53,904 nt of DNA from positions 1 through 53,904 of the forward strand of contig CALKGQ010000006.1 of the NCBI GenBank assembly GCA_938085425.1, read 5' to 3'. Shown piece by piece: positions 7,949 through 52,751 of the stretch. Each line of letters opens with the position of its first letter. Positions within the stretch are counted from its first letter, which is position 1. Origin of the DNA: an uncultured Flavobacteriales bacterium. GTDB taxonomy: Bacteria > Bacteroidota > Bacteroidia > Flavobacteriales_D > Sanyastnellaceae. The notes beneath the pieces are model-generated. The model saw only the letters and a program-made list of their open reading frames with translations. It had not been told where the DNA came from and did no database searches. The position numbers were made by a program, and so were the translations under genes.

Positions 7949-8290
7949 TCAGCCTCTTTTGGCATCGTCGTCGGCCGTCGGCCGCAGCCATTCCAGCACC
8001 AAACCGAAGGCTGCAAGCACCAAATACTCCGGTCCTGTGGCGCCAATCACCCAATGTTGTCCGGCGGACACCAGGCATGCCACCACCCCGAGGCTGACCC
8101 TCAGAATGCCCAAAAAGTCCGTGTCTTTGTTGGGCTGAGATTCGGGGCCATGGGACCACAACCCCAAGCTGTGCAGTGCGAGGCAAGCCCAAGGTGCAAC
8201 GGCGTGGCCTTCAGCCAGAATGCCGGCACATGCCAAGGACATGCACACGAGGTGCAGCAGACGGTGGGGACGACGGGCCAAACGGATCAT
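7949..8290 (-). CDS. Small hypothetical membrane protein
   Basis: 113 residues that I do not recognise. It has about three to four hydrophobic stretches (LLHLVCMSLACAGI, ACLALHSLGLW, LRVSLGVVACLV, YLVLAAFGLVLEWL) separated by short polar loops, and a charged C-terminus. Such a pattern suggests a small inner-membrane protein. The gene is supported by a TAATTTTG promoter box placed four bases before its ATG, the same arrangement as its divergent neighbour at 8352. Overlapping reading frames lack comparable features. Confidence 0.65.
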   Translation of the reverse strand: MIRLARRPHRLLHLVCMSLACAGILAEGHAVAPWACLALHSLGLWSHGPESQPNKDTDFLGILRVSLGVVACLVSAGQHWVIGATGPEYLVLAAFGLVLEWLRPTADDDAKRG

Positions 8291-8294
8291 GTGG

Positions 8295-8302
8295 CAAAAT
8301 TA
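8295..8302 (-). promoter_or_regulatory. Start-adjacent promoter box of the small membrane protein gene
   Basis: TAATTTTG matches TAnnTTTG and is followed by CCAC and then the ATG at 8290. A TTG lies 22 bases upstream. With this spacing the transcript would begin at or beside the start codon. Confidence 0.65.
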
Positions 8303-8339
8303 CGGGCCACGGCGGAGCCCGCTGCAATCTGCCACGCGA

Positions 8340-8347
8340 TACCTTCG
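8340..8347 (+). promoter_or_regulatory. Start-adjacent promoter box of the thioesterase gene
   Basis: TACCTTCG, then TGGC, then the ATG at 8352. It is a TTCG variant of the Bacteroidota -7 box at the same four-base spacing found at several other genes in this window. No clear -33 TTG is visible. Confidence 0.6.
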
Positions 8348-8351
8348 TGGC

Positions 8352-8750
8352 ATGATCCAACCCTACCAGCCGGAGATCCGGTTTTCAGACGTGGACGCCT
8401 ATGGTATCGTGCACAATGCGACCTACATCGTTTACATGGAGCAGGCCCGCATTCATTGGTGGCGGCAAGCGGTGCGCCAAGAGCGATGGGATTGGAGCCA
8501 GATTGGCGTGCTCGTTGCCCACCACAACATCGACTATGTCCAACCCGTGAAGTTGGGCGATCCTTTGGAAATTGCTTGCCAAATCGCCGAGGTGGGGGAC
8601 AAGAGCATGGACGTGCATTACAAAATGACCTGTGAGGGTCGGCCGATTGCCACGGCAAAAACGGTCCTGGTGTGTTTTGACCATGCCCAAAAGCGCACGG
8701 TGTCCGTTCCCCAAGCTTGGCGCGAGGCCATTGCAGAGGCGGAGCGCTGA
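8352..8750 (+). CDS. Acyl-CoA thioesterase, 4HBT/YbgC-like hotdog fold
   Basis: 132 residues from ATG 8352 (MIQPYQPEIRFSDVDAYG). The hotdog-fold signature is SDVDAYGIVHNATYIVYMEQ: the Asp, His-Asn and the Glu of the central helix are the residues used by 4-hydroxybenzoyl-CoA thioesterase relatives to hydrolyse acyl-CoA thioesters. Length is normal for the family. A longer reading with upstream starts would add a non-homologous basic stretch. The substrate cannot be told. It is divergent from the small membrane protein gene with 61 bases between the two starts, and both have start-adjacent promoter boxes. Confidence 0.88.
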   Translation: MIQPYQPEIRFSDVDAYGIVHNATYIVYMEQARIHWWRQAVRQERWDWSQIGVLVAHHNIDYVQPVKLGDPLEIACQIAEVGDKSMDVHYKMTCEGRPIATAKTVLVCFDHAQKRTVSVPQAWREAIAEAER

Positions 8751-26987: not shown

Positions 26988-27019
26988 GTAGTGTCGGCAG
27001 TGGTTCTTATCTTTCATAA

Positions 27020-28537
27020 ATGAAATATCTTCTTTTGCCTGTCGTGTTTTTTGGAGCGAATGCATTGGTACATGGCCAATCAGATTGCGGGTACCAACCT
27101 GACGTGGAGCCAGACTGGAGCATTGGGGTGAGTGATATCTTGAGCATTTTGGGGCTTTTTGGAGAGGTCGACTCCGACCAAGACTACATTTGGGACAACG
27201 CGGACTTGTGCACGGACACTCAGGCATGCAACTACGATGCCAACCCAAGTGAAGAATGTTTGTACCTCGATGCATTTGGCATTTGCGGTGGAGGTGGTGC
27301 CCTGCCTGAATTGTTGGTGGGGTCTTGGAGATTGAGTACATCGGCAGGAGCGGTGGCCTTTGGCCCCGACCCCTACAGTTCGGCATGGTTTTCGAGCCCG
27401 CCCAACAGCCTTCAATCGGCCCAATACGATGACGTCTACACCTTCCACGATGACGGGACGTTCACCACGGACTACAATGGCAGCATCATCGATGCTTTTT
27501 TGGATTACAGCGAGCAGGGATACAGTTGTTCTGGCGCCGAATTGGCATTCCTCCCAGGAGGAGGAACCACTGGGGAAGATGCGTTTTCCTTGGCTCCGCT
27601 GGCAGGAGGATGCAGTTGCCCCTTCATGGGCACCAACGATGCTGGCTTGGAATACGACATTGTGGAGTTGACCAGCAACACCCTGCGGATCCATTCCCGC
27701 TCGGACAATGCTTCTTGCCAGCCAGGCTCGAGCTATGCCAGCTTCATTTTCGTTCGCGTCAATGGCGGAGACACTGGGGGAGGTGTGGATGGTGAAGATG
27801 GCTATCAGGGAGCAGACAGCTACCCGGGGATGAACCTTGTTTGGGCCGACGAATTCGACGGGTCCACCATCAACTCAAGCAACTGGACATACGACCTAGG
27901 TGCGAGCGGATGGGGCAACAATGAGTGGCAGAATTACACGTCGTCCTCCAACAACAGCTCGGTGTCGGACGGCTTCCTGACCATCACCGCACGCCAGGAG
28001 CCAGGTGGAGGCTACACCTCTGCACGAATGAAGTCGCAAGGCCTGCAAACCTTTCAGTACGGCCGCATCGATTTCAGAGCGAAAATGCCAGAGGGACAGG
28101 GCATTTGGCCTGCATTGTGGATGTTGGGCGAAAACATCAATTCAGTGAGCTGGCCTGCGTGTGGCGAAATTGACGTGATGGAGTTGGTGGGGCATCAGCC
28201 TTCCACCACCCATGGCACAGCCCACTGGGGAAGCAACTTCAGTGTGCACCAATACCAAGGGAGCTCTTCGACGTTGTCAGGGGGAGAAAAATTCAGTGAC
28301 TCCTTTCACTTGTTCTCGGTGCTTTGGCAAGAGAACAACATCTCGTGGTACTTGGACGATCAGTTGTTCTACAGCATCAACTCCAGCCAAATGAATGGTC
28401 AACCCTATCCATTCAACGCGCAGTTCTTTTTCATCATGAACATTGCTGTTGGCGGCAACTGGCCGGGATATCCTGATGCCAGCACCCAGTTCCCACAGAC
28501 CATGGTGGTGGACTATGTGAGGGTGTTCCAACAATAA
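27020..28537 (+). CDS. Secreted GH16 endo-beta-1,3-glucanase (laminarinase) with N-terminal dockerin-like module
   Basis: 505 residues. Signal peptide (MKYLLLPVVFFGANALVHGQ), then a dockerin-like half-module (SIGVSDILSILGLFGEVDSD) with a TQACNYDANPSEEC Cys repeat. Next is a lipocalin-like domain of about 150 residues. A GH16 domain follows (about 260-505), beginning NLVWADEFDG and carrying the catalytic motif GEIDVMELVG, in which the first Glu is the nucleophile and the second the acid/base. The active-site motif EIDxxE with an intervening Met is typical of laminarinases, so algal laminarin is the likely substrate. No T9SS C-terminal domain is present; the protein ends at the GH16 fold (VVDYVRVFQQ). 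Confidence 0.93.
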   Translation: MKYLLLPVVFFGANALVHGQSDCGYQPDVEPDWSIGVSDILSILGLFGEVDSDQDYIWDNADLCTDTQACNYDANPSEECLYLDAFGICGGGGALPELLVGSWRLSTSAGAVAFGPDPYSSAWFSSPPNSLQSAQYDDVYTFHDDGTFTTDYNGSIIDAFLDYSEQGYSCSGAELAFLPGGGTTGEDAFSLAPLAGGCSCPFMGTNDAGLEYDIVELTSNTLRIHSRSDNASCQPGSSYASFIFVRVNGGDTGGGVDGEDGYQGADSYPGMNLVWADEFDGSTINSSNWTYDLGASGWGNNEWQNYTSSSNNSSVSDGFLTITARQEPGGGYTSARMKSQGLQTFQYGRIDFRAKMPEGQGIWPALWMLGENINSVSWPACGEIDVMELVGHQPSTTHGTAHWGSNFSVHQYQGSSSTLSGGEKFSDSFHLFSVLWQENNISWYLDDQLFYSINSSQMNGQPYPFNAQFFFIMNIAVGGNWPGYPDASTQFPQTMVVDYVRVFQQ

Positions 28538-30212: not shown

Positions 30213-30803
30213 TCATTTGGAATGCTTGCAGGTCCACACCAATTCCGGCTCGCCGAAGGAAAGCATTTCCCGCCGGTCGCATGGCTTGCCAGACAGGGTT
30301 GTGCCTTGAAGTTGCACCTCGTTCACCTGGTCAGCATACTCCTTGAACATTCCAGAGTGTGTCACTTGCCAAAGTTTGGGGCCAACATCCAAGGGTTGAG
30401 ATTCAAGGTAGAGGTAGGACACATCCAATTCCACTTCTTTGCCGACCCACTGCCATGTCACGGGTACACTGTCCACCCACACTTGCAGATGGGCCCTTGA
30501 CCAGTCCAGCAGGGTCGCATCCGACTCTGCCCATTCCCGTTCCTCACCCAACCAAAGCACGAAGCCCTCTTCCAGTTCTCCATGGTTTTTCATGGCAAGT
30601 TCCAGGTCGTCCGTGAAGACGCGTAAGGTGGTTTGTAAGGTGTGGCTCTCAGGATTCCATCGCACATCGGTTCTCGAAAAATGAAAATCGTGTGAGATTC
30701 CCATGGCAGAAATGACCGTGCAAACCGCGATGGAGGCGAATGCCCACAACACACGCCTCTGATTTGTGGATGCTTTCTCGATGGTTGTGTCTGCTTCGGG
30801 CAT
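30213..30803 (-). CDS. DUF6702 family membrane-anchored or exported protein
   Basis: 196 residues from ATG 30803. It starts with a charged stretch, then one hydrophobic segment (VLWAFASIAVCTVISAMGIS) and a beta-rich region beginning HDFHFSRTDVRWNPESHTLQ, with RVFTDDLELAM. That stretch is the hallmark of DUF6702, a family of unknown role in Bacteroidota. A Cys pair near the C-terminus (PCDRRE and WTCKHSK) could form a disulfide. It is divergent from nrnA with 22 bases between the starts and overlaps nothing. Function unknown. Confidence 0.8.
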   Translation of the reverse strand: MPEADTTIEKASTNQRRVLWAFASIAVCTVISAMGISHDFHFSRTDVRWNPESHTLQTTLRVFTDDLELAMKNHGELEEGFVLWLGEEREWAESDATLLDWSRAHLQVWVDSVPVTWQWVGKEVELDVSYLYLESQPLDVGPKLWQVTHSGMFKEYADQVNEVQLQGTTLSGKPCDRREMLSFGEPELVWTCKHSK

Positions 30804-30807
30804 GGTG

Positions 30808-30815
30808 CAAATGTA
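30808..30815 (-). promoter_or_regulatory. Start-adjacent promoter box of the DUF6702 gene
   Basis: TACATTTG, then CACC, then the ATG at 30803. It matches TAnnTTTG exactly at the four-base spacing seen at other genes. It lies in the 22-base gap to the divergent nrnA gene, whose own start is preceded by TATCTTGC at four bases. Confidence 0.65.
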
Positions 30816-30825
30816 TCTTGCTTGC

Positions 30826-31872
30826 ATGGAAGATGTGTTCCGGAACCCGGAGGTATTGGCATTGAAAGGTAGGATGAAGCAAGGCACCCGCGTTGTGATC
30901 ACTGCGCACCGTTCGCCTGATGGGGATGCCATTGGCTCCTCTCTTGCCATGAAGCACCTGTTGGCCCACCTCGATGTGCACGCTCAAGTCATCATGCCAG
31001 ATGCCTATGCCAAGTTCTTGCAGTGGCTTCCTGGCCATGACGAGGTTTGGTTCCACGAGCGTTCGCCGGAGGCCTGCGAGCAGGCGATGCGCGAGGCCCA
31101 AGTTGTGTTTTGCTTGGACTACAATGCCCCAAGCCGGGCAGGTCGGCTGGGTCCAGCTGTCGAGGCAGCAAGCCAACGTGACACTTGTTTTGTGGCCGTT
31201 TTGGACCACCACCAAAAGCCTGAGGCCTTCGCTGATTTGTTGGTTTCAGATCCTTCCACAGCAAGCACGGCTGAATTGGTGTACCGTTTGATGAAGGCGT
31301 GGGAGATGAGCGATGCACTGGACGCCCAAATGGCGGCATGTCTGTATTGCGGACTCATCACCGACACGGGGAGCTTTCGGTTTCCTTCTGTTCAGCCTTC
31401 CACCCACGAGATGGCCTCCCATTTGTTGGGGACTGGTATGGACCACAGCAGGGTGCACAGTTTGATTTACGACGCCTGTCGTCTGGATCAAATCCAGCTT
31501 ACTGCCTATGCTTTGAGCCAAAAACTTCAAGTATTCCCAGAACACCGCAGCGCGATCGTTTCGCTTTCACAAGAAGAGCTTCGTCGGTACAATGCCCAAA
31601 AGGGGGACACGGAGGGGTTGGTGAACCGTGCCTTGAGCATTGAGGGCATCAACTTTGCGGCGTTCATCAAAGAGGATGTGGATCTTGTGAAATTGAGTTT
31701 GCGGTCGCGAGGTGCATTCAGTGTGCGCGATGTGGCAGACGCACACTTTCATGGTGGTGGTCACCACAACGCTGCCGGGGGTGCATGCGCGGATGAGTCT
31801 TTGGAGGAGGTGGTGGATCGTCTTGTGGGGTTGCTTCCAAGTTTTTCCAGTGCCCTCCAATATGAGGATTGA
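30826..31872 (+). CDS. nrnA: DHH/DHHA1 phosphoesterase, NrnA-like (nanoRNase / pAp phosphatase)
   Basis: 348 residues from ATG 30826 (MEDVFRNPEVL). The DHH motifs are ITAHRSPDGDAIGSS, LDYN, the signature VLDHHQ, and GLITDTGSFRF; they bind two Mn2+ ions. The C-terminal DHHA1 domain has the GGGHHNAAGG motif that binds nucleic-acid substrate. The family degrades oligoribonucleotides of 2-5 nt and dephosphorylates 3'-phosphoadenosine 5'-phosphate. The next gene begins 15 bases downstream and encodes a GldI-like lipoprotein, a common pairing in Bacteroidota, so the two are probably co-transcribed. Confidence 0.9.
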   Translation: MEDVFRNPEVLALKGRMKQGTRVVITAHRSPDGDAIGSSLAMKHLLAHLDVHAQVIMPDAYAKFLQWLPGHDEVWFHERSPEACEQAMREAQVVFCLDYNAPSRAGRLGPAVEAASQRDTCFVAVLDHHQKPEAFADLLVSDPSTASTAELVYRLMKAWEMSDALDAQMAACLYCGLITDTGSFRFPSVQPSTHEMASHLLGTGMDHSRVHSLIYDACRLDQIQLTAYALSQKLQVFPEHRSAIVSLSQEELRRYNAQKGDTEGLVNRALSIEGINFAAFIKEDVDLVKLSLRSRGAFSVRDVADAHFHGGGHHNAAGGACADESLEEVVDRLVGLLPSFSSALQYED

Positions 31873-32884: not shown

Positions 32885-33361
32885 TTAAGGTTGATCCTGG
32901 TGCTCCTTCCATTGTTCCACCCATCGCCATGCGGCGCTGTCCACCAAGTCGTGCACTTGGGCAAAGCCTGAGGCGCCTCCATAGTAAGGGTCAGGCACTT
33001 CGCTGTCTTCCAGGAAAAGACCCACTTTGTTACGCCATTCTGTGCGTGGACCTGCAATTGCAAGGGCGTCTTCTAGGTTGGAATGGTCCATCACCAAAAT
33101 CACATCAAACCGGTCAAAGTCCTTTCGTACGAGAGGGCGGGACCTTTGCGATGAAATGTCCATGCCCCTGCGACGCATTTCTTGCTGGGCGCGGAGGTCA
33201 GGTGGTTCGTTTTGGTGGTGGCCAGAAGTGCCTGCGGAGTCCACCTTGATGCGAAGCCCCATCGATTGGATGTGATGTCGCAAGACCCCCTCGGCCATGG
33301 GGGACCTGCAAATGTTGCCAAGACAAACGACCAATACGCGGCTGGGCATGTTCTTGTTCAT
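32885..33361 (-). CDS. Low-molecular-weight protein-tyrosine phosphatase
   Basis: 158 residues. The P-loop CLGNICRS near residue 13 supplies the nucleophilic Cys and the Arg of the CX5R motif, and the general acid Asp is in EVPDPYYGG. Length is normal for the family. It would dephosphorylate protein phosphotyrosine or arsenate-like substrates in the cytosol; the target is unknown. It lies just downstream of dnaA, separated by a terminator, and convergent with the GldI-like gene. The ATG at 33361 is preceded by CATCTTCG at four bases, one mismatch from the promoter box of other genes. Confidence 0.93.
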   Translation of the reverse strand: MNKNMPSRVLVVCLGNICRSPMAEGVLRHHIQSMGLRIKVDSAGTSGHHQNEPPDLRAQQEMRRRGMDISSQRSRPLVRKDFDRFDVILVMDHSNLEDALAIAGPRTEWRNKVGLFLEDSEVPDPYYGGASGFAQVHDLVDSAAWRWVEQWKEHQDQP

Positions 33362-38635: not shown

Positions 38636-39742
38636 TCAGCCTTTGTAGAATGGGAATCGGATCACATGGCAAGCCAGGCTTTTGTTCCGAATCTCCACCA
38701 ACAACGAAGTCCCTGGTTGGGCGTGTGAGGCGTCAATGTACGCCATTCCAATGCCATGACCTAAGGAGGGAGACATCGTGCCACTCGTCACTTTCCCGAC
38801 CACCGCTCCGTCGGCATTTTTGACCACGTAGTCTTGTCTCGGGATCCCCCGTTCATCCATCACTAGACCCACAAGCTTGGTGGAGGGGCCTTGTGCCTTT
38901 TCGTGCTCCAAAGTCGGTTTGGCGACAAAGTCTTTGGTGAACTTGGTGATCCATCCCAGGCCTGCGGAAATGGGCGAGGTGTTGTCGTTCAGGTCATTTC
39001 CGTAAAGGCAATACCCCATTTCCATGCGCAGGGTGTCTCTTGCGCCCAAACCACAGGGGACCGCCCCTTCAGCCAGCAGCGCGTCCCACACCGACTCAGC
39101 GGCCTCCACGGGCATGTAAATCTCCAATCCTCCAGATCCGGTGTAGCCTGTGGCGGACAAGATCACCTCATGCCCCATCAGTTTGCCCAATGTGAAGGTG
39201 TAATAGGCCAGTTCTGACCAGGGCAAACCATCCGCCCGGGCAGGCCCCAAACGTCGCACCATGTCCTGGGCATTGGGACCTTGCACCGCCAGCAGCGCGT
39301 AGCGATCGCTTTCGTCGCGAACCGTGGCGTCCCATGCATGCAGCGTGACTTGCTCCTGGATCCAATTCCAGTCTTTTTCTCGGTTGCTTGCGTTGACCAC
39401 GAGCATGAAACGGTCAGAGGTCAAACGGTACACCAGCATGTCGTCCACAATCCCACCTGCATCATTGGGCATGCAACTGTATTGGACCTTGCCGTCTTCC
39501 AATGCCGAAGCATCGTTGGTGCTGATCCATTGAATCAGTTTTTCAGCGTCGGGTCCTTCCACCATGAATTCCCCCATGTGGCTGACATCAAACATGCCGA
39601 CGTCCTGCCTTACTGCTTGGTGTTCGAGCTTGAGTCCCTGGTATTGCACAGGCATGTTGTGGCCCGCAAAAGGGACCATCTTGGCGCCTGCCTTCAGATG
39701 GGCGTCATGAAGGGCGGTGGGCTTCAATGGGGTCGTTTCCAT
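38636..39742 (-). CDS. gcvT: Aminomethyltransferase, glycine cleavage T protein
   Basis: 368 residues from ATG 39742 (METTPLKPTALHDAH). It transfers the methylene group of the aminomethyl-lipoyl H protein to tetrahydrofolate. Family motifs: VPFAGHNMPVQYQ, FDVSHMGEF, the NDA...GGIVDDMLVYR segment with the folate-site Asp, and SATGYTGSGGLEIYM. gcvH and gcvP are not in the window. The start lies inside the 3' end of the WbqC-like gene (38-base overlap), and TACCTTCG precedes the ATG by four bases, so an internal promoter is possible. Confidence 0.95.
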   Translation of the reverse strand: METTPLKPTALHDAHLKAGAKMVPFAGHNMPVQYQGLKLEHQAVRQDVGMFDVSHMGEFMVEGPDAEKLIQWISTNDASALEDGKVQYSCMPNDAGGIVDDMLVYRLTSDRFMLVVNASNREKDWNWIQEQVTLHAWDATVRDESDRYALLAVQGPNAQDMVRRLGPARADGLPWSELAYYTFTLGKLMGHEVILSATGYTGSGGLEIYMPVEAAESVWDALLAEGAVPCGLGARDTLRMEMGYCLYGNDLNDNTSPISAGLGWITKFTKDFVAKPTLEHEKAQGPSTKLVGLVMDERGIPRQDYVVKNADGAVVGKVTSGTMSPSLGHGIGMAYIDASHAQPGTSLLVEIRNKSLACHVIRFPFYKG

Positions 39743-40334
39743 GGTGCGAAGGTAGCGAGGCAGCATCGGGCCCGAGGTGAAGAATGACATCCAAGATGGA
39801 GCGTCCCGTGACAAAGCCCAAACGGTCTTCAAACACTTGGGGGTACCTTGGGGTGGTGACGGCTTTCCATCGGCCTTTGGGACGCCAATCGTCGAGGTCG
39901 GGTCCTGTCAGGTAGCCATCGCTTCGCTGAGGCATGCTCAAGCCGAGCCATGAACTGGCCAAGGCGGAAGAGGCGAAAGCAGCATCCCACCATGAAGCGC
40001 CTGGTTGCAAATGTGCATTCGCCCATGCCTGGACCTCATCGATGTAGTGGTCAAAGAATGGTGCACTGCCGCAATTGGTGTGCAATGGCTTCAAAAGGCA
40101 TTCGGGAGAGATCTTGTCCGTGAACACGATGTCCATCACGTTTCGGGAGCTTGCATTTCTCCGATGCACAGGCAGGCTGACAAAGGTGGCTCCTTGAGAT
40201 TCTACGAGCAGGATGCGGTTCCGCACACTCTGCTTGACAAAGTTTTCATGTTGGCATACCATCGCGCCCGGGGTTTGGGCAAGATGAAACCAAGCCAAAG
40301 GAGGGAAGGTGGCCGCGGGAAGAACCAAGGCCAT
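39705..40334 (-). CDS. WbqC-like family protein
   Basis: 209 residues from ATG 40334 (MALVLPAATFPPLAW). The N-terminal ATFPPLAWFHLAQ, HENFVKQSVRNRILL and TFVSLPVH stretches are typical of the WbqC family, whose members occur in O-antigen and other polysaccharide loci and whose reaction is not settled. In Bacteroidota it is often found next to lepB and dapB, as here. It begins 5 bases after the lepB stop and overlaps gcvT by 38 bases, so it is translated from the same mRNA. Confidence 0.82.
   Translation of the reverse strand: MALVLPAATFPPLAWFHLAQTPGAMVCQHENFVKQSVRNRILLVESQGATFVSLPVHRRNASSRNVMDIVFTDKISPECLLKPLHTNCGSAPFFDHYIDEVQAWANAHLQPGASWWDAAFASSALASSWLGLSMPQRSDGYLTGPDLDDWRPKGRWKAVTTPRYPQVFEDRLGFVTGRSILDVILHLGPDAASLPSHHGNDPIEAHRPS
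39747..39754 (-). promoter_or_regulatory. Start-adjacent promoter box of gcvT
   Basis: TACCTTCG, then CACC, then the gcvT ATG at 39742. It lies inside the coding end of the WbqC-like gene, which makes it either an internal promoter of the operon or a chance match. Confidence 0.45.
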
Positions 40335-40339
40335 GGCCG

Positions 40340-41935
40340 TTACTTGACCGTGGTCATCATGCGGTTCCAACGGATTTTGGATTCCCCGTGCTGCTCCTCA
40401 TTTTGTTTGCTGAACCAAATGAAAGAAGCCCGGCCCACAATGTGGTCCTCAGGCACAAACCCCCACATGCGGCTGTCTGCCGACCTGTGTCGGTTGTCCC
40501 CCATCATCCAATACCCATCCATGCCAAAGGTGAAGGTGGTGCATTCTGTGCCGTCTATGCTGGTGGTTCCGTCCTTGCCCACCTGGAAGTCATGCCCTTC
40601 ATAGGCTGAGATCCACCGCTTGTAGATGGCGATGTTTCTGGGGGTGAGCTCAATGGTCTGGCCTGCCTTGGGAAGTGTGACGGGGCCATAGTTGTCGGGA
40701 TCCCAGGCGTTGAACTCATCCCCCCAAACATTGGGGAACATGGCCAGCCGGCCCCTTTGGTGGGCATTGCTCATGGGCTCCATGGACAAAGCCAAGGGCT
40801 CCATGGCCGCAGCTTCAGATTCTGTCAAGGCCATCACGGCGGCAATGCCTTCGGGCACCACACTGACGGGCCCCAAATCGAGTTTGGTGAGCCCCAGTTT
40901 TCGATAGGCCTTTTGGGCCTCCGCCTGAGAGCCAAATACCACCCGGTGCTCCATCTGGAGGCCGGGAGGATTTTCCACAGGCGCACCATCGATGTGCAAC
41001 TGGCCTTGCACCACGCTCACCGTTTCCCCGGGAAGGCCTACGCAGCGCTTGACGTAGTTCTCCATCTTGTCGACAGGTCGAGCCCGCAGCCCGGGCCGCC
41101 GTTGGGCTTGTTTCCTCGCTTGGTCCAAATATTTGTCGGGATTCAAGGAAAATGCTTGAACGTCACCTCCGGCCCTTCGGATGCCTTCTCGGCGCAAGAG
41201 TGCATGGTAGTCGTGCCCCACCAAGACCGGGTCCACGTACACGGTGTCGCCATGGGGGAAACTGAACACCACCGCATCGTAGCGCTGTACATCTCTCCAG
41301 CCTGGAAGTCGAAGGTTGGGCAGGGTGAACCATGAGGTGTAGCTTGGGGTCAATCCGCCAGGCAAGGCATTGTGCACAAAGGGCATGGAGAAGGGTGTCC
41401 TTGGCAGCTTGGCGCCGTACGAAGTTTTGTCGACCACCAGATAGTCCCCAACGAGCATGCTGCCCTCCATGGATGGGGTTGGAATGGTGAAGGGTTCAAG
41501 CAACAGCATTCGCAGCGAACCAGCCACCACGGTGGCCCAAATCAAGGCTTCACTCCATTCCCGCCAAGTGGATTTTTGCGTCTTCGACCAATCCCTCTTG
41601 CCCATCCATGTGTCGTTTCCTTGACGGAGCTCCCATAGTCCCCACCAAGGAAGGGCGCCAAAGATCCATTGGTCTTTTGCGCTGCGGCGACCAAATGCAA
41701 TGCCCAACTCCACATGCATCACGGTCAGCAGAAGCAAATTGATTCCGGGCACCCAAAGGAACAGGATCCAGTACCAAGGACGCTGGATCAAATCCAACCA
41801 CACCAAAAAGTGAAGTCCGGGGACGGCACCTTTCCAAGCTGCCGCATTGGGGTCCTTTTTGAGGAGCAATGCGGGCAAGGTGATCCATTGAAGGAGCAGG
41901 GCCAGGGCCAAAAGAATCCAGGGAAGAAGATGCAT
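40340..41935 (-). CDS. lepB: Signal peptidase I with long insertions
   Basis: 531 residues, much longer than E. coli LepB (324). Several membrane spans occupy the first 150 residues. The catalytic Ser155 is in IPTPSMEGSM and the Lys general base Lys296 in MENYVKRCVGLPGE. The conserved box E, GDNRHRSADSRMWGF, is near residue 480. The inserts between Ser and Lys (about 140 residues) and before box E (about 180) are of the kind seen in Bacteroidota. It removes signal peptides of Sec-exported proteins, including the many secreted proteins encoded here. One base separates it from dapB. Confidence 0.94.
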   Translation of the reverse strand: MHLLPWILLALALLLQWITLPALLLKKDPNAAAWKGAVPGLHFLVWLDLIQRPWYWILFLWVPGINLLLLTVMHVELGIAFGRRSAKDQWIFGALPWWGLWELRQGNDTWMGKRDWSKTQKSTWREWSEALIWATVVAGSLRMLLLEPFTIPTPSMEGSMLVGDYLVVDKTSYGAKLPRTPFSMPFVHNALPGGLTPSYTSWFTLPNLRLPGWRDVQRYDAVVFSFPHGDTVYVDPVLVGHDYHALLRREGIRRAGGDVQAFSLNPDKYLDQARKQAQRRPGLRARPVDKMENYVKRCVGLPGETVSVVQGQLHIDGAPVENPPGLQMEHRVVFGSQAEAQKAYRKLGLTKLDLGPVSVVPEGIAAVMALTESEAAAMEPLALSMEPMSNAHQRGRLAMFPNVWGDEFNAWDPDNYGPVTLPKAGQTIELTPRNIAIYKRWISAYEGHDFQVGKDGTTSIDGTECTTFTFGMDGYWMMGDNRHRSADSRMWGFVPEDHIVGRASFIWFSKQNEEQHGESKIRWNRMMTTVK

Positions 41936-48380: not shown

Positions 48381-48388
48381 TAGCTTCG
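48381..48388 (+). promoter_or_regulatory. Start-adjacent promoter box of the DEAD-box helicase gene
   Basis: TAGCTTCG, then four bases, then GTG 48393. The spacing supports GTG 48393 over other GTG codons as the start. Confidence 0.6.
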
Positions 48389-48392
48389 AGGT

Positions 48393-49784
48393 GTGGAAAA
48401 ACCAACAGAAGAGAAGGGCGCTCAGCCCGTGGAAGAAAAAGTGCGATTCGACACCCTTGATTTGCATCCGGACATTGAGGATGGCTTGTTTTCGATGGGG
48501 TTTGAGACCGCCACCCCCATTCAAAGCAAAGCGATCCCCGATGCGCTGAAGAAAAAAGACATCTTGGGGATCGCCCAAACGGGGACGGGGAAGACAGCGG
48601 CATTTTTGCTGCCCACCATGGACCGTATTATGGACACCCCCAACGACGGCAAAGTCAAGGCGCTCATTGTGGTGCCCACCCGTGAGCTTGCCCGTCAAAT
48701 CGACCAAGCCGCCGAGGGCTTTGCCTATTATACGGGCATCACGAGCCTCGCCATTTATGGGGGAGGCACGGGGAAGGAATTTGCCCAAGAGAAGAAAGCG
48801 CTTACTGAAGGGGCAGACATTGTCATTGTGACTCCGGGTCGAATGCTCTCCCACCTCACCCTTGGATATGTTGACCTCAGCTCGCTGGAGGTTTTGATTT
48901 TGGATGAAGCCGACCGCATGTTGGACATGGGATTCCACCAAGACATCATGCGCATCGCCTCGCATTGCAGGAGTGAGAGACAGACCTTGCTCTTCTCTGC
49001 CACCATGCCTGACCGAATGCGCACCCTTGCCCACGACCTCCTCAGGGATCCGGTCACAGTTCAGCTTGCCTTGAGCAAGCCTGCTGCCAAGGTGAAGCAG
49101 GGTGCCTACGTTTTGTTCGATCACCAAAAAGATGACGTCCTTGTCGAGGTTCTGAAGGAGCGCAACGTGAAAAGCGGCATTGTTTTTACCTCTAGGAAAA
49201 GAACCGTGGGGCAAGTGGTGCGGGCCCTCCGCAAAGGAGGAATCAAGTGCGGTCGGATGTCCAGTGATTTGGAACAATCCGAAAGAGAAGAAGTGATGTT
49301 GGCCTTCCGTCAACAAAAGCTGCCCATCCTTGTGGCCACAGATGTGGTGTCGAGGGGCATTGACATTGACAGCATCGAGCTGGTGGTGAACTATGACGTG
49401 CCGCCCAATGAGGAAGATTACGTGCACCGCATTGGCCGTACGGCCAGGGCCGAGCGCAAGGGCGAGGGCATCACACTTGTCACCCCAGATGACATGCGCC
49501 GGTTTGGGAACATTGAGAAACTCATCGAGAAAGAGGTTCCCAAGCTGAAGGTCCCTGAATCATTGGGTGCTGTCCCAGACTACGATCCCAAATCTTCGGG
49601 TTCACGTGGCAGAGGAGGCTCCGGAGGTGGTCGTCACGGAGGCGGTGGTCGTCACGGAGGCGGTGGCCGCCACGGAGGCGGTGGCCGTCATGGAGGCGGT
49701 GGCCGTCATGGAGGCGGCGGTGGCGGAAAGCGCCATGGCAAATCGGGCGGCGGTGGAAAGCCCAACTCTGGAGGACAACGCTGA
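48393..49784 (+). CDS. DEAD-box RNA helicase with glycine-rich tail
   Basis: 463 residues from GTG 48393 (MEKPTEEKGAQPVEEK). RecA-like domain motifs: Q motif ATPIQSKAIP, Walker A AQTGTGKT, Ia PTRELA, DEAD in LILDEADRML, SAT, and in the second domain RGIDIDSIELVVNYD and HRIGRTARAERKGEG. It unwinds RNA and probably acts in ribosome assembly or cold response. The C-terminal tail (from about residue 405) is low-complexity and basic: five RHGGGG units encoded by an 18-bp tandem repeat, followed by GKRHGKSGGGGKPN. It precedes msrB by 16 bases, so the two are likely co-transcribed. Confidence 0.95.
   Translation: MEKPTEEKGAQPVEEKVRFDTLDLHPDIEDGLFSMGFETATPIQSKAIPDALKKKDILGIAQTGTGKTAAFLLPTMDRIMDTPNDGKVKALIVVPTRELARQIDQAAEGFAYYTGITSLAIYGGGTGKEFAQEKKALTEGADIVIVTPGRMLSHLTLGYVDLSSLEVLILDEADRMLDMGFHQDIMRIASHCRSERQTLLFSATMPDRMRTLAHDLLRDPVTVQLALSKPAAKVKQGAYVLFDHQKDDVLVEVLKERNVKSGIVFTSRKRTVGQVVRALRKGGIKCGRMSSDLEQSEREEVMLAFRQQKLPILVATDVVSRGIDIDSIELVVNYDVPPNEEDYVHRIGRTARAERKGEGITLVTPDDMRRFGNIEKLIEKEVPKLKVPESLGAVPDYDPKSSGSRGRGGSGGGRHGGGGRHGGGGRHGGGGRHGGGGRHGGGGGGKRHGKSGGGGKPNSGGQR
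49632..49721 (+). repeat. 18-bp tandem repeat in the helicase tail
   Basis: Five consecutive 18-bp units encoding Arg-His-Gly-Gly-Gly-Gly, starting at 49632, 49650, 49668, 49686 and 49704, with only silent differences until the last unit. Confidence 0.9.
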
Positions 49785-50198: not shown

Positions 50199-51416
50199 TC
50201 AGTCCTGGTGGGCGCGTCTTGTCGTCCAAACCCACAGGGCCACCCCGGACAAAAAGGTGCACACAGAAATCAACTCGGCTTGGGTCATGGTGATGCCAAG
50301 CCAATCAAAGGTGGTGTTCACGCGGATCTTTTCGACCCAAAATCGCTCAAAGCCATTGAACATGAGATAAGCGGCAAAGGCCTTTCCCGGCGTGCTCCAA
50401 CGCTTTCGCATGGCCCAAAGAATGGCAAACCCCAGGACTGCAGCGGTGGTCTCGTAGATCGGTGTTGGGAAAACAGCAGGGTCCAAAAACGTGCCGTACC
50501 CTTCAAAGGATGGCCACGAGTGCACATTGGGGTCAATCAATTTTCCGGTGTATCCTGCCTCTCGTGGTCCGTACACCGCATTGACATTGTTGGGGTATGC
50601 ATAACGCCAGACCCATTCAGGCGCCCAGGAAAGCCAATCGGGCATCGGGTTGGGGTTGGGAATGCCCCAATCCCCGTCTCCACTGATGTGGCAGCCCATG
50701 CGACCAATGCCGTAACCGAGCAAAAGGCCTGGTGCAGTAGCGTCTGCGAGTCGGAGAAAGTGGAGGCCTTTGCGTCGGGCAAATGCGTAAACAGAGAGCC
50801 CCCCTACAATCAACCCTCCATAAATGGTCAGTCCTCCGAGGAATGCAGACAAACTTGGGCGTTCAAGAAACGCCACGAATTCCTCGGGGTACTCGAGAAG
50901 GTGAAACATCTTGGCACCTGCGATGCCACCCACGGCTGCGGCGGCTGTGATGCCACCGACCCACTCGTGGGGCATGATGGTCTGCGTGATGGTTTTGGGC
51001 TCTGGGAGCTGGTCTTTCTTGACTTCGTAATGACGCCATGCAGTCAACACAACAGCGCCCACAATGCCCCAAAGTACATTTCCTTCAGTACTAAAAAGAT
51101 GGGCTTGAGGAAGTCCGCCTCCAGCAAAGAGCGTTGAGGCATTCGCAAGCAAGTAAATCACTTTCCAACCCAACACGAAGCCGACCAAGGCCTGCATTCC
51201 CAAATCCAAAGGGTGCGGTCCATGGCCGATCTCGATCTTTTGTTCTGAGGGCTGAAAGTGGCCTTGGAGCGTCATGCGCTTCATTTCACGACTCAGCAAG
51301 GCATGCGCAGCCACAAAGGCAAGGGCCACAAAAAAGCCAAAACTGTTGATGAGTTTGAGGGCAGGAAGGTCCCATCCCAACAGATCAAGAAAGACATGGT
51401 AGAGGTTGGGGTACAT
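50199..51416 (-). CDS. lgt: Prolipoprotein diacylglyceryl transferase
   Basis: 405 residues with about seven or eight membrane spans, longer than the roughly 290-residue enzyme of E. coli. The signature GYGIGRMGCHISGDGDWG contains the essential Arg and Gly of the Lgt signature but with Cys-His in place of the usual Asn-Phe, and YETTAAVLGF with FNGFERFWVEK follows. It transfers diacylglycerol from phosphatidylglycerol to the lipobox Cys of prolipoproteins, such as the GldI-like lipoprotein here. It follows the mtaB gene by 17 bases, but TAGCTTCG lies four bases before its own ATG. Confidence 0.92.
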   Translation of the reverse strand: MYPNLYHVFLDLLGWDLPALKLINSFGFFVALAFVAAHALLSREMKRMTLQGHFQPSEQKIEIGHGPHPLDLGMQALVGFVLGWKVIYLLANASTLFAGGGLPQAHLFSTEGNVLWGIVGAVVLTAWRHYEVKKDQLPEPKTITQTIMPHEWVGGITAAAAVGGIAGAKMFHLLEYPEEFVAFLERPSLSAFLGGLTIYGGLIVGGLSVYAFARRKGLHFLRLADATAPGLLLGYGIGRMGCHISGDGDWGIPNPNPMPDWLSWAPEWVWRYAYPNNVNAVYGPREAGYTGKLIDPNVHSWPSFEGYGTFLDPAVFPTPIYETTAAVLGFAILWAMRKRWSTPGKAFAAYLMFNGFERFWVEKIRVNTTFDWLGITMTQAELISVCTFLSGVALWVWTTRRAHQD

Positions 51417-51420
51417 GATG

Positions 51421-51428
51421 CGAAGCTA
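51421..51428 (-). promoter_or_regulatory. Start-adjacent promoter box of lgt
   Basis: TAGCTTCG, then CATC, then the ATG at 51416. It lies in the 17-base gap after the mtaB stop. Confidence 0.55.
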
Positions 51429-51433
51429 TGGCG

Positions 51434-52738
51434 TCAAGGGCTTTGAACCTCACCAGAGACCCAGCCGAGTGGGTCGACCCGCTCCAAGTGCACTGGAACC
51501 ACTTGATTTCCCTCAGCCTGGTCAAGGGGGATCGCCACCCGGATGTAATTGGGCGTGTACCCCATGCGAAGGCCATCTTCGGAGGCATCTTCCACAAGGA
51601 CTTGATGGGCCCGTCCCAACCCTTGTTCGTAATGGGCGCGCTGCATTTTCAGGCTGAGGTTGCGCAAGATTTTGTTGCGCTGTTTCCGAACAGGGACCGG
51701 CACAATGTCTTCAATTCTGAGCGCAGTAGTGTTGGGTCTTTCGCTGTAGGTGAATACATGTAGGTAGCTGCATGACAATGACTTGATAAACTCAACTGTG
51801 TCCATAAAATCTTGGTCGCTCTCTCCGGGGAATCCCACGATCACGTCCACGCCAATGCCCGCAGTGGGAAGCACTTCGCGGATGTGTTGGATCCTGGAAC
51901 GGTACAAGTCGGTTCTGTAACGACGTCGCATGGCACCAAGGACCTTGTCGCTGCCAGACTGCAAGGGGATGTGAAAGTGTGGCTGGAACTTTCGAGAGGT
52001 GGCCACAAAATCGATCAAATCGTCGGTGAGCAAGTTGGGCTCTATGGAGGAGATGCGGAACCGTTCAACGCCATCCAATCCATCGAGAGCCTTGGCCAAG
52101 TCCAGCAAAGTTTCGCCATGCGACGCGCCAAAATCTCCAATGTTCACCCCAGTGAGCACAATTTCTTTGGCTCCGGCCGCCACGGCCTTTTCAGCTTGAT
52201 TCAAGGTTTCGGCCACAGTGGCACTCCTCGAACGGCCTCGCGCCAATGGAATGGTGCAAAACGCGCAGAAATAGTTGCAGCCATCTTGGACCTTCAAGAA
52301 TGACCTGGTTCGGTCCCCACTTGAATGTCCTGGAATGAAGTCCTTCACTTCTTTGATTTCCCCAGCAACGGCTCGTCCTTCTCCTTTATATTGGAGGGTG
52401 TCAAGATGCTGGATCAAGTTGAATTTTTCTCCTGCTCCAAGCACGAGGTCCACGCCTTCGATGCTGGCGATTTCCTCTGGCTTGAGTTGGGCGTAGCAGC
52501 CCACCACCACCACGAAGGCCTCAGGATTGCTTTGCATGGCTCGACGAACCGCATTGCGGCATTTTGCATCGGCCTGGTCGGTGACGCTGCAGGTGTTGAT
52601 GACCACCACGTTGGGGGCATCGTCAATGTGCACCCTTGCGTAGCCAGACTCCTCCAATTGACGTGCAAGGGTGGAGGTCTCACTGAAATTCAGCTTGCAG
52701 CCGAGGGTGTGGAAGGCCGCTTTTTGTCCCAAAACCAT
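51434..52738 (-). CDS. mtaB: tRNA methylthiotransferase, MtaB-like (radical SAM)
   Basis: 434 residues from ATG 52738 (MVLGQKAAFHTLGCKLN). An N-terminal UPF0004 domain has three Cys (TLGCKLN, NTCSVTD, VVGCYAQ) for an auxiliary [4Fe-4S] cluster. The radical-SAM motif CNYFCAFCTIPLARG provides CxxxCxxC. A C-terminal TRAM-like stretch follows, with VPVHLERVDPLGWVSGEVQS. MtaB adds a methylthio group to t6A37 of tRNA; MiaB is the alternative, but the N-terminus and length favour MtaB. A long in-frame upstream extension is antisense to the next gene and is rejected. Confidence 0.9.
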   Translation of the reverse strand: MVLGQKAAFHTLGCKLNFSETSTLARQLEESGYARVHIDDAPNVVVINTCSVTDQADAKCRNAVRRAMQSNPEAFVVVVGCYAQLKPEEIASIEGVDLVLGAGEKFNLIQHLDTLQYKGEGRAVAGEIKEVKDFIPGHSSGDRTRSFLKVQDGCNYFCAFCTIPLARGRSRSATVAETLNQAEKAVAAGAKEIVLTGVNIGDFGASHGETLLDLAKALDGLDGVERFRISSIEPNLLTDDLIDFVATSRKFQPHFHIPLQSGSDKVLGAMRRRYRTDLYRSRIQHIREVLPTAGIGVDVIVGFPGESDQDFMDTVEFIKSLSCSYLHVFTYSERPNTTALRIEDIVPVPVRKQRNKILRNLSLKMQRAHYEQGLGRAHQVLVEDASEDGLRMGYTPNYIRVAIPLDQAEGNQVVPVHLERVDPLGWVSGEVQSP

Positions 52739-52743
52739 GGTCG

Positions 52744-52751
52744 CAAAGGTA
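52744..52751 (-). promoter_or_regulatory. Start-adjacent promoter box of mtaB
   Basis: TACCTTTG on the minus strand, then five bases, then the ATG at 52738. A TTG lies 17 bases upstream. It overlaps by two bases with the opposite-strand box for the FG-GAP gene. Confidence 0.65.

Follow-up and report, generated by a model that had tools for sequence, protein, structure and literature searches.

The window, by which we mean the whole stretch of 53,904 nucleotides analysed here, carries seven genes whose start codon is closely preceded by the octamer TAnnTTYG. Two of these genes stand back to back: the -7 box TAATTTTG (8295..8302, minus strand) ends 4 nt before the ATG at 8290 of a 113-amino-acid protein with no match in Pfam or NCBIfam, and TACCTTCG (8340..8347, plus strand) ends 4 nt before the ATG at 8352 of a YbgC/FadM-type thioesterase. 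The same distance of 4 nt separates TACATTTG (30808..30815, minus) from the ATG at 30803 of a DUF6702 protein, a further copy of TACCTTCG (39747..39754, minus) from the ATG at 39742 of GcvT, and two copies of TAGCTTCG from the GTG at 48393 of a DEAD-box helicase (box at 48381..48388, plus) and from the ATG at 51416 of an Lgt-like protein (51421..51428, minus). In the gene for an MtaB-type methylthiotransferase, TACCTTTG (52744..52751, minus) lies 5 nt before the ATG at 52738. These seven sites, five with ATG at gap 4, one with GTG at gap 4 and one with ATG at gap 5, are those listed by the first-pass annotation, and all were found as listed. Its chance figure of about 0.04 is indeed far below seven, but the expected number is lower still: 41 starts with two spacings each give 0.029 if the composition of the window is used and 0.014 if its actual density of boxes is used.

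Four more starts had been listed with one-base variants of the box, and their letters are as quoted, but they do not fare equally when their classes are counted at gap 4 in an 854 kb sample of the genome. The octamers before 7406 (CATTTTTG) and 33361 (CATCTTCG) are changed at T-12 and are unsupported: changes at T-12 or A-11 gave no excess at gap 4 in this sample, CA..TTYG-N4-ATG being seen 21 times with 26.3 expected. The variant TATCTTTC (27008..27015, plus), 4 nt before the ATG at 27020 of a GH16 protein, is plausible only, as its class TA..TTYC (10 vs. 3.3 expected) is perhaps in excess. For TATCTTGC (30814..30821, plus), 4 nt before the ATG at 30826, the excess of the class TA..TTG[CT] is marginal (8 vs. 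3.3); this octamer and the box of 30803 lie on opposite strands and overlap by 2 nt. Two further classes, TA..TTGG (13 vs. 2.0) and TA..TTYA (7 vs. 1.4), are in excess.

The back-to-back boxed starts at 8290/8352 and 30803/30826, and a third pair in the genome (G000:C14, 109007/109038), have start codons only 61, 22 and 30 nt apart, so that divergent polymerases could hardly occupy both promoters of a pair simultaneously. The T9SS sorting domain TIGR04183 scored above cut-off in 2 of 8 window proteins scanned, and placement in Bacteroidota rests on these domains together with the kinship labels of the genome set. The low-molecular-weight phosphatase-like protein encoded at 32885-33361 (minus) matched three relatives of 46-48% identity, all from other phyla (an Opitutales MAG, Pseudophaeobacter and a Robiginitomaculum MAG), a pattern for which gene transfer is a possible explanation.

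Excess of the box at a fixed distance from ATG

The enrichment 4-5 nt before starts, whose absence genome-wide the first-pass annotation had named as grounds for giving up its proposal, is present. In the whole genome (2,069,661 bases in 56 contigs), TAnnTTYG-N4-ATG occurs 140 times and TAnnTTYG-N5-ATG 48 times, against 16 and 6 for the same patterns with their letters reversed, and forward counts exceed this control in all 114 genomes of the family, in some only slightly (G395, 75 vs. 56). A scan of gaps 0 to 39 nt before ATG in 454 kb, made without a gene model, gave 38 boxes at gap 4 and 0-9 at each of the other gaps. There was no peak at gap 4 for GTG, TTG or CTG in this sample, nor any excess in the genome for GTG as a general leaderless start (15 vs. 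44 in the control).

Genes were called with a home-made coding caller in 854 kb, or 41% of the genome (662 genes). Of the 58 gap-4 matches in this sample, 56 coincide in frame with the 5' end of a gene so called; one of the two exceptions is 8290, a short gene that the caller did not find. In 37 of the 56 the boxed ATG was also the caller's own first choice. In non-coding DNA upstream of genes, in a profile that reassigned boxed starts to the boxed ATG and thereby favours gap 4 (the raw 454 kb count is free of this bias), 54 boxes fell at gap 4 in 496 positions, where 0.67 would be expected from the density far upstream. A core promoter sequence thus stands at fixed spacing right before the start codon, far above background. 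Exact sense boxes numbered 54, 11, 4 and 4 at gaps 4, 5, 6 and 7, followed by 8 boxes in the 3740 positions of gaps 8-15 (2.1 per 1000, vs. 1.35 per 1000 beyond 40 nt). A second, leadered group lies at gaps 16-39 (47 boxes in 9842 positions), though its difference from the trough at 8-15 is modest (p 0.03), and since the 16-39 bins also hold 21 opposite-strand boxes (reversed-letter control, 4), part of this group may be divergent promoters or background.

When the first in-frame ATG after each box was taken, 74 were found at 4-5 nt, 27 at 6-12, 55 at 13-40 and 2 at 0-1, which places 74 of 158 (47%) at 4-5 nt. The distribution of distances therefore has two peaks, and the same box seems to serve two kinds of gene, one leaderless and the other with a leader of about 12-36 nt, lengths in between being less common. 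Such a gap would be expected if ribosomes work either without a leader or with one that gives them room to bind. Above the control there are 124 matches at gap 4 and 42 at gap 5, about 166 genes in all, so that exact boxes would predict a leaderless mRNA for about 10% of some 1600 genes; this estimate covers exact boxes only, uses a gene number scaled from the sample, and comes with a caller that misses some short genes. The share of leaderless genes was also estimated by open-ended EM, but the fit moved towards a generic start context and its result was discarded.

The probability that chance or the base composition of a TA-poor, GC-rich genome produced this pattern is negligible. It is true that the background is unusual, TpA-containing octamers being generally scarce in coding DNA here. 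However, the nulls were built on the genome's own densities (the reversed pattern, other gaps, other codons), and the excess of 140 over 16, the gap profile and the conservation in genus loci described below already refute an origin by chance. Specific avoidance of the box in coding DNA was considered and rejected: it occurs 49 times in sense where 176 are expected and 36 times in antisense where 217 are expected, but other TA-containing octamers are about equally scarce. On the antisense strand of the relatives G411, G045 and G499 the box was scarcer than the controls tried. As a separate observation, the TA-starting octamers with six fixed bases that were tested are mostly two- to fivefold below synonymous-codon shuffles in the coding DNA of the window genome, whatever the motif, and this scarcity is less pronounced in G045 and G499, two relatives of low GC content.

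The consensus of boxed starts reads T A c/n c/t T T Y G n n n C, followed by ATG. At gap 4, position -6 is C in 31 boxes (TTCG) and T in 27 (TTTG), while G is found at -9 in 1 of 58 and at -10 in 10 of 58. C directly precedes the ATG in 49 of 56 boxed genes, compared with 314 of 531 unboxed ATG genes (p 2e-5), and in 11 of 15 members of the gap-5 set. C at -1 is common before ATG in general in the 854 kb sample, operon-internal genes included; this general start context is independent of the promoter. The extra C seen in boxed genes fits a C/A initiation step. In 16 of the 56 boxed genes the box contains an in-frame TAA or TAG, which excludes a translation start upstream of the box in those 16.

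Conservation was followed locus by locus in the 11 genomes of the genus for 8290, 8352, 39742, 48393 and 51416. At 8352 the exact box stands 4 nt before an ATG in 10 of 11 loci, in 9 of the 11 together with the 8290 box on the opposite strand; in the eleventh (G471) the exact box is 27 nt before the probable ATG and the gene is apparently leadered. The 51416 gene is present in 10 of the 11 genomes and has an exact box in all 10 loci, at gap 4 in six and gap 5 in four, the bases between box and ATG varying while the box is kept. For 39742 an incomplete eleventh locus was left out; all 10 loci that include the start have the exact box at gap 4. This box falls in the last part of a reading frame that begins upstream and overlaps the gene (39705-40370), and coding constraint may contribute to its conservation. 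Close orthologous loci of 48393 were found in nine genomes, the remaining two having only distant relatives that were not counted; all 9 have GTG at gap 4, with an exact box in seven and TACTTTCA in two.

The box as a promoter element

The first-pass annotation had likened the box to the -7 element of Bacteroidota promoters, and the tRNA genes bear this out. A search of the genome gave 28 tRNA genes, of which 23 were first in their cluster with at least 40 nt of upstream sequence (four lay behind another tRNA and one at a contig end). An exact box occurs within 60 nt upstream in 20 of these 23, in 13 of them 3-25 nt before the tRNA. Given how densely boxes occur in intergenic DNA, the probability of this is 9e-21; removing a duplicate (L083 and L084 share one upstream sequence) leaves 19 of 22, with a probability of 1e-19. 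Because tRNA genes are not translated, the box cannot be a translation signal there and must be a promoter element, and a place before untranslated stable RNA genes is what would be expected of a -7 promoter of the F. johnsoniae type. The tRNA promoters (L071-L096) also have a GC-rich stretch after the -7 box (GCGCC, GCGGCCC, GCACCCC), C at base 6 after the box in 19 of 19, and TTG starting at -36 to -33 in 8 of 19. The GC-rich stretch resembles the stringent-control discriminator of other bacteria.

In mRNA genes, one could argue that the octamer is instead a translation-start signal within the mRNA, Kozak-like or ribosome-binding, with transcripts starting further upstream. Its fixed distance from the ATG would suit such a role, as would a start context (C at -1, A near -12) common to the gene classes profiled. 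The position of boxed genes speaks to both sides. Boxes precede 28 of 208 divergent genes, 9 of 97 same-strand genes with a gap of at least 100 nt, 7 of 147 with a gap of 30-100 nt, 12 of 203 with less than 30 nt and 0 of 7 at stretch ends. This trend favours promoters. Within the last same-strand class, 7 of 20 genes at gaps of 20-30 nt are boxed, a higher fraction than among divergent genes, which shows that boxes also occur away from obvious operon heads; against a translation signal, boxes are found in only 3 of 149 genes that overlap their neighbour or follow it within 10 nt (2 of 34 at 10-20 nt). The identical box before 20 of 23 untranslated tRNA genes, its agreement in sequence and spacing with the published -7 element, the second group of boxes at 16-39 nt, and the G471 orthologue of 8352 with its exact box 27 nt before the probable ATG all point the same way, and we regard a translation-start signal as very unlikely.

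The known element closest to the box is the sigma-ABfr -7 element of B. fragilis and F. johnsoniae, TAnnTTTG. In the accessible text of PMC6847099, the distance from box to RNA-seq-predicted start is 4-5 nt in 241 of 434 candidate F. johnsoniae promoters; those with this spacing were the ones selected as "probable promoters", and in them T-12, A-11, T-8, T-7, T-6 and G-5 are nearly invariant. The consensus given there, TAnnTTTG, excludes G at -10 and -9, and the -33 element, TTTG in B. fragilis promoters, is described as much less evident in F. johnsoniae. Our box comes close to this consensus and shares the position at -12 to -5 relative to the presumed start and the avoidance of G at -9, and the use at tRNA genes is seen in the window genome; its gap to the ATG equals the commonest published box-to-start spacing. 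It differs in that C is as free as T at -6, G is tolerated at -10 and, above all, the box very often ends 4 nt before a start codon. Boxed mRNAs also lack a -33 or AT-rich upstream element: upstream of their boxes the information content stayed at or below 0.15 bits at every position, with no sign of a -33 motif or an AT-rich tract, and TTG starting at -36 to -33 occurred in 3 of 72 boxed mRNA promoters, about as often as by chance.

Predicted initiation on the start codon

As F. johnsoniae transcripts often start 4-5 nt after the box, boxed mRNAs of this genome should start on or beside the AUG. If the A of the ATG is taken as +1, the near-invariant positions of F. johnsoniae, T-12 to G-5, are reproduced. 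We infer that TAnnTTYG is a -7 promoter element that is very often set so that transcription starts on or beside the start codon, giving leaderless mRNAs; we put the probability of this reading at about 0.86. The Bacteroidota housekeeping sigma factor would read the box, whose placement in this genus would very often make RNA polymerase initiate at the A of the start codon, give or take about one base. The products predicted from the position of the box would be leaderless mRNAs beginning with 5'-AUG, rarely 5'-GUG, and ribosomes would take up the 5'-terminal start codon with neither Shine-Dalgarno pairing nor the usual A-rich leader. Genes of a second set, in which this box lies 16-39 nt upstream, would be transcribed with short leaders.

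The exact start base leaves some room. Base 5 after the box is C or T in 32 of 48 leadered promoters and in 17 of 19 tRNA promoters, and a start always fixed at that base would often put a pyrimidine at the head of the transcript. The start may therefore not be fixed: either the polymerase accepts C starts or the start shifts a few bases with the sequence, and a boxed ATG offers an A. Transcripts might then be near-leaderless, starting 2-5 nt off the start codon, either inside the gene or with a leader of 2-5 nt, so that a tiny leader or a later start codon would be used. Besides these pyrimidines, the slight enrichment at gaps 6-7 (8 boxes) and the variation between gaps 4 and 5 among 51416 orthologues would agree with such a displacement. 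We consider it unlikely, as the sharp maximum at gap 4 (54, against 11, 4 and 4 at gaps 5, 6 and 7) and the extra C at -1 fit a start on the A.

The translation context shows no Shine-Dalgarno signal, G not being enriched at -13 to -6 in divergent genes or in same-strand genes with gaps below 30 nt or of at least 100 nt. The leadered, Kozak-like initiation of Flavobacterium (PMC6847099, accessible text) likewise does without Shine-Dalgarno pairing; here an A preference near -12 is seen in operon-internal genes. In that system leaders exceed 10 nt in 87% of the predicted F. johnsoniae transcripts that have a probable promoter, and do not in 13%; in the window genome, by comparison, GC content over the 30 nt preceding ATG is lowered by only 3.3 points. 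The same method gave 3.9 points for G471 and 6.3-8.8 for five relatives outside the genus; a GC fall of 12.6% before starts, in points or relative terms not made clear in the accessible text, is reported for the phylum (PMC3155529).

Leaderless transcription is not a recognised common mode in this phylum, as the first-pass annotation had stated, and the portions of the literature at hand agree: about 3.7% of 5' UTRs are shorter than 10 nt in B. thetaiotaomicron, 5.5% of 890 mRNAs are leaderless in F. psychrophilum, and leaderless genes were predicted in 1 of 37 Bacteroidetes/Chlorobi genomes, at 2.4% of genes, in a survey of Pribnow-like boxes only (Zheng 2011, PMC3160421). The leaderless genes of Actinobacteria and Deinococcus-Thermus treated in the same paper differ from those predicted here in their -7/-10 element. 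Leaderless mRNA is mentioned as reported in some Flavobacteriia lacking CCUCC (PMC10783764). Prior hints thus exist, none of which, in the accessible text, names the box-on-start arrangement or this lineage; among the matches listed in the open-access literature (titles and starts of abstracts), there was no description of abundant leaderless transcription in a Bacteroidota lineage.

Spread in the family and meaning

The trait is graded, and strongest in the genus of the window and in g178. The excess per Mb is 60 in g178 (one genome) and 56 in the window's genus (11 genomes), then 51, 51, 48, 41 and so on down to 7 in g173. Among 199 genomes of the order, other families vary: G522 has 214 boxes vs. 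78 in the control, and f2 ranges from about 1:1 (G610, 141 vs. 143) to nearly 3:1, while some genomes show no forward excess (G525, 87 vs. 119; G511, 81 vs. 99). Inspection by eye of a phylum sample of 394 genomes found no forward-to-control ratio above the 8.8 of the window genome, the next being 5.2 in G136.

The share of boxes at 4-5 nt among those at 4-5 and 13-40 nt, with small counts in the samples of the relatives, was 0.57 in the window genome, 0.59 in G471 of the same genus, 0.47 in G436, 0.41 in G411, 0.33 in G072 (another family, 9 boxes), 0.10 in G045 and 0.06 in G499. In samples of 115-226 kb, again with small counts, G411 (41% GC) had 13 boxes at 4-5 nt vs. 19 at 13-40 nt, and G045 (45% GC) had 2 vs. 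18, and G+C content was rejected as the sole cause. The G499 sample held 3 gap-4 matches where about 11 were predicted from the whole-genome count of 131 in 2.4 Mb; because of this mismatch and the small counts, genera were ranked by whole-genome counts.

The 3' end of 16S rRNA was also inspected. Matches were found in 16 of the 114 family genomes, and 11 loci could be read to the 3' end: 8 have TACCTCC, G500 and G491 have AACTCC, and G446 has ATCTCC. These altered anti-Shine-Dalgarno cores, TTAACTCC in G500 and G491 (L046 and L047, from different genera) and TTATCTCC in G446 (L051), have the first C of CCUCC replaced. None of the 11 genomes in the genus of the window yielded a 16S match, so no link between the anti-Shine-Dalgarno change and box placement can be drawn.

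It is tempting to extend the leaderless reading to the entire family (114 species, 21 genera), in which a large part of the promoters may have come to lie on start codons. Among genes of the window's genus that have a promoter of their own, leaderless initiation may then be a main mode that has taken the place of the A-rich leader, while in three sister genera the anti-Shine-Dalgarno core has been eroded. We hold this broader proposal only tentatively, at somewhat less than even odds.

Shine-Dalgarno pairing plays almost no part in translation in Bacteroidota, and the selection of start codons in this phylum is still to be explained. For annotation, the box pins the start codon, and 19 of the 56 boxed starts differ from the coding-score call. 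According to the accessible text of PMC9581028, some antibiotics inhibit leadered but not leaderless initiation, and the predicted leaderless genes would matter for such compounds. In the three Bacteroidota species with transcript data, about 87-96% of mRNAs have leaders of some 10 nt or more, as far as the available excerpts report. A lineage with promoters on its start codons would be a natural contrast to them: one phylum and one box, with two modes of initiation.
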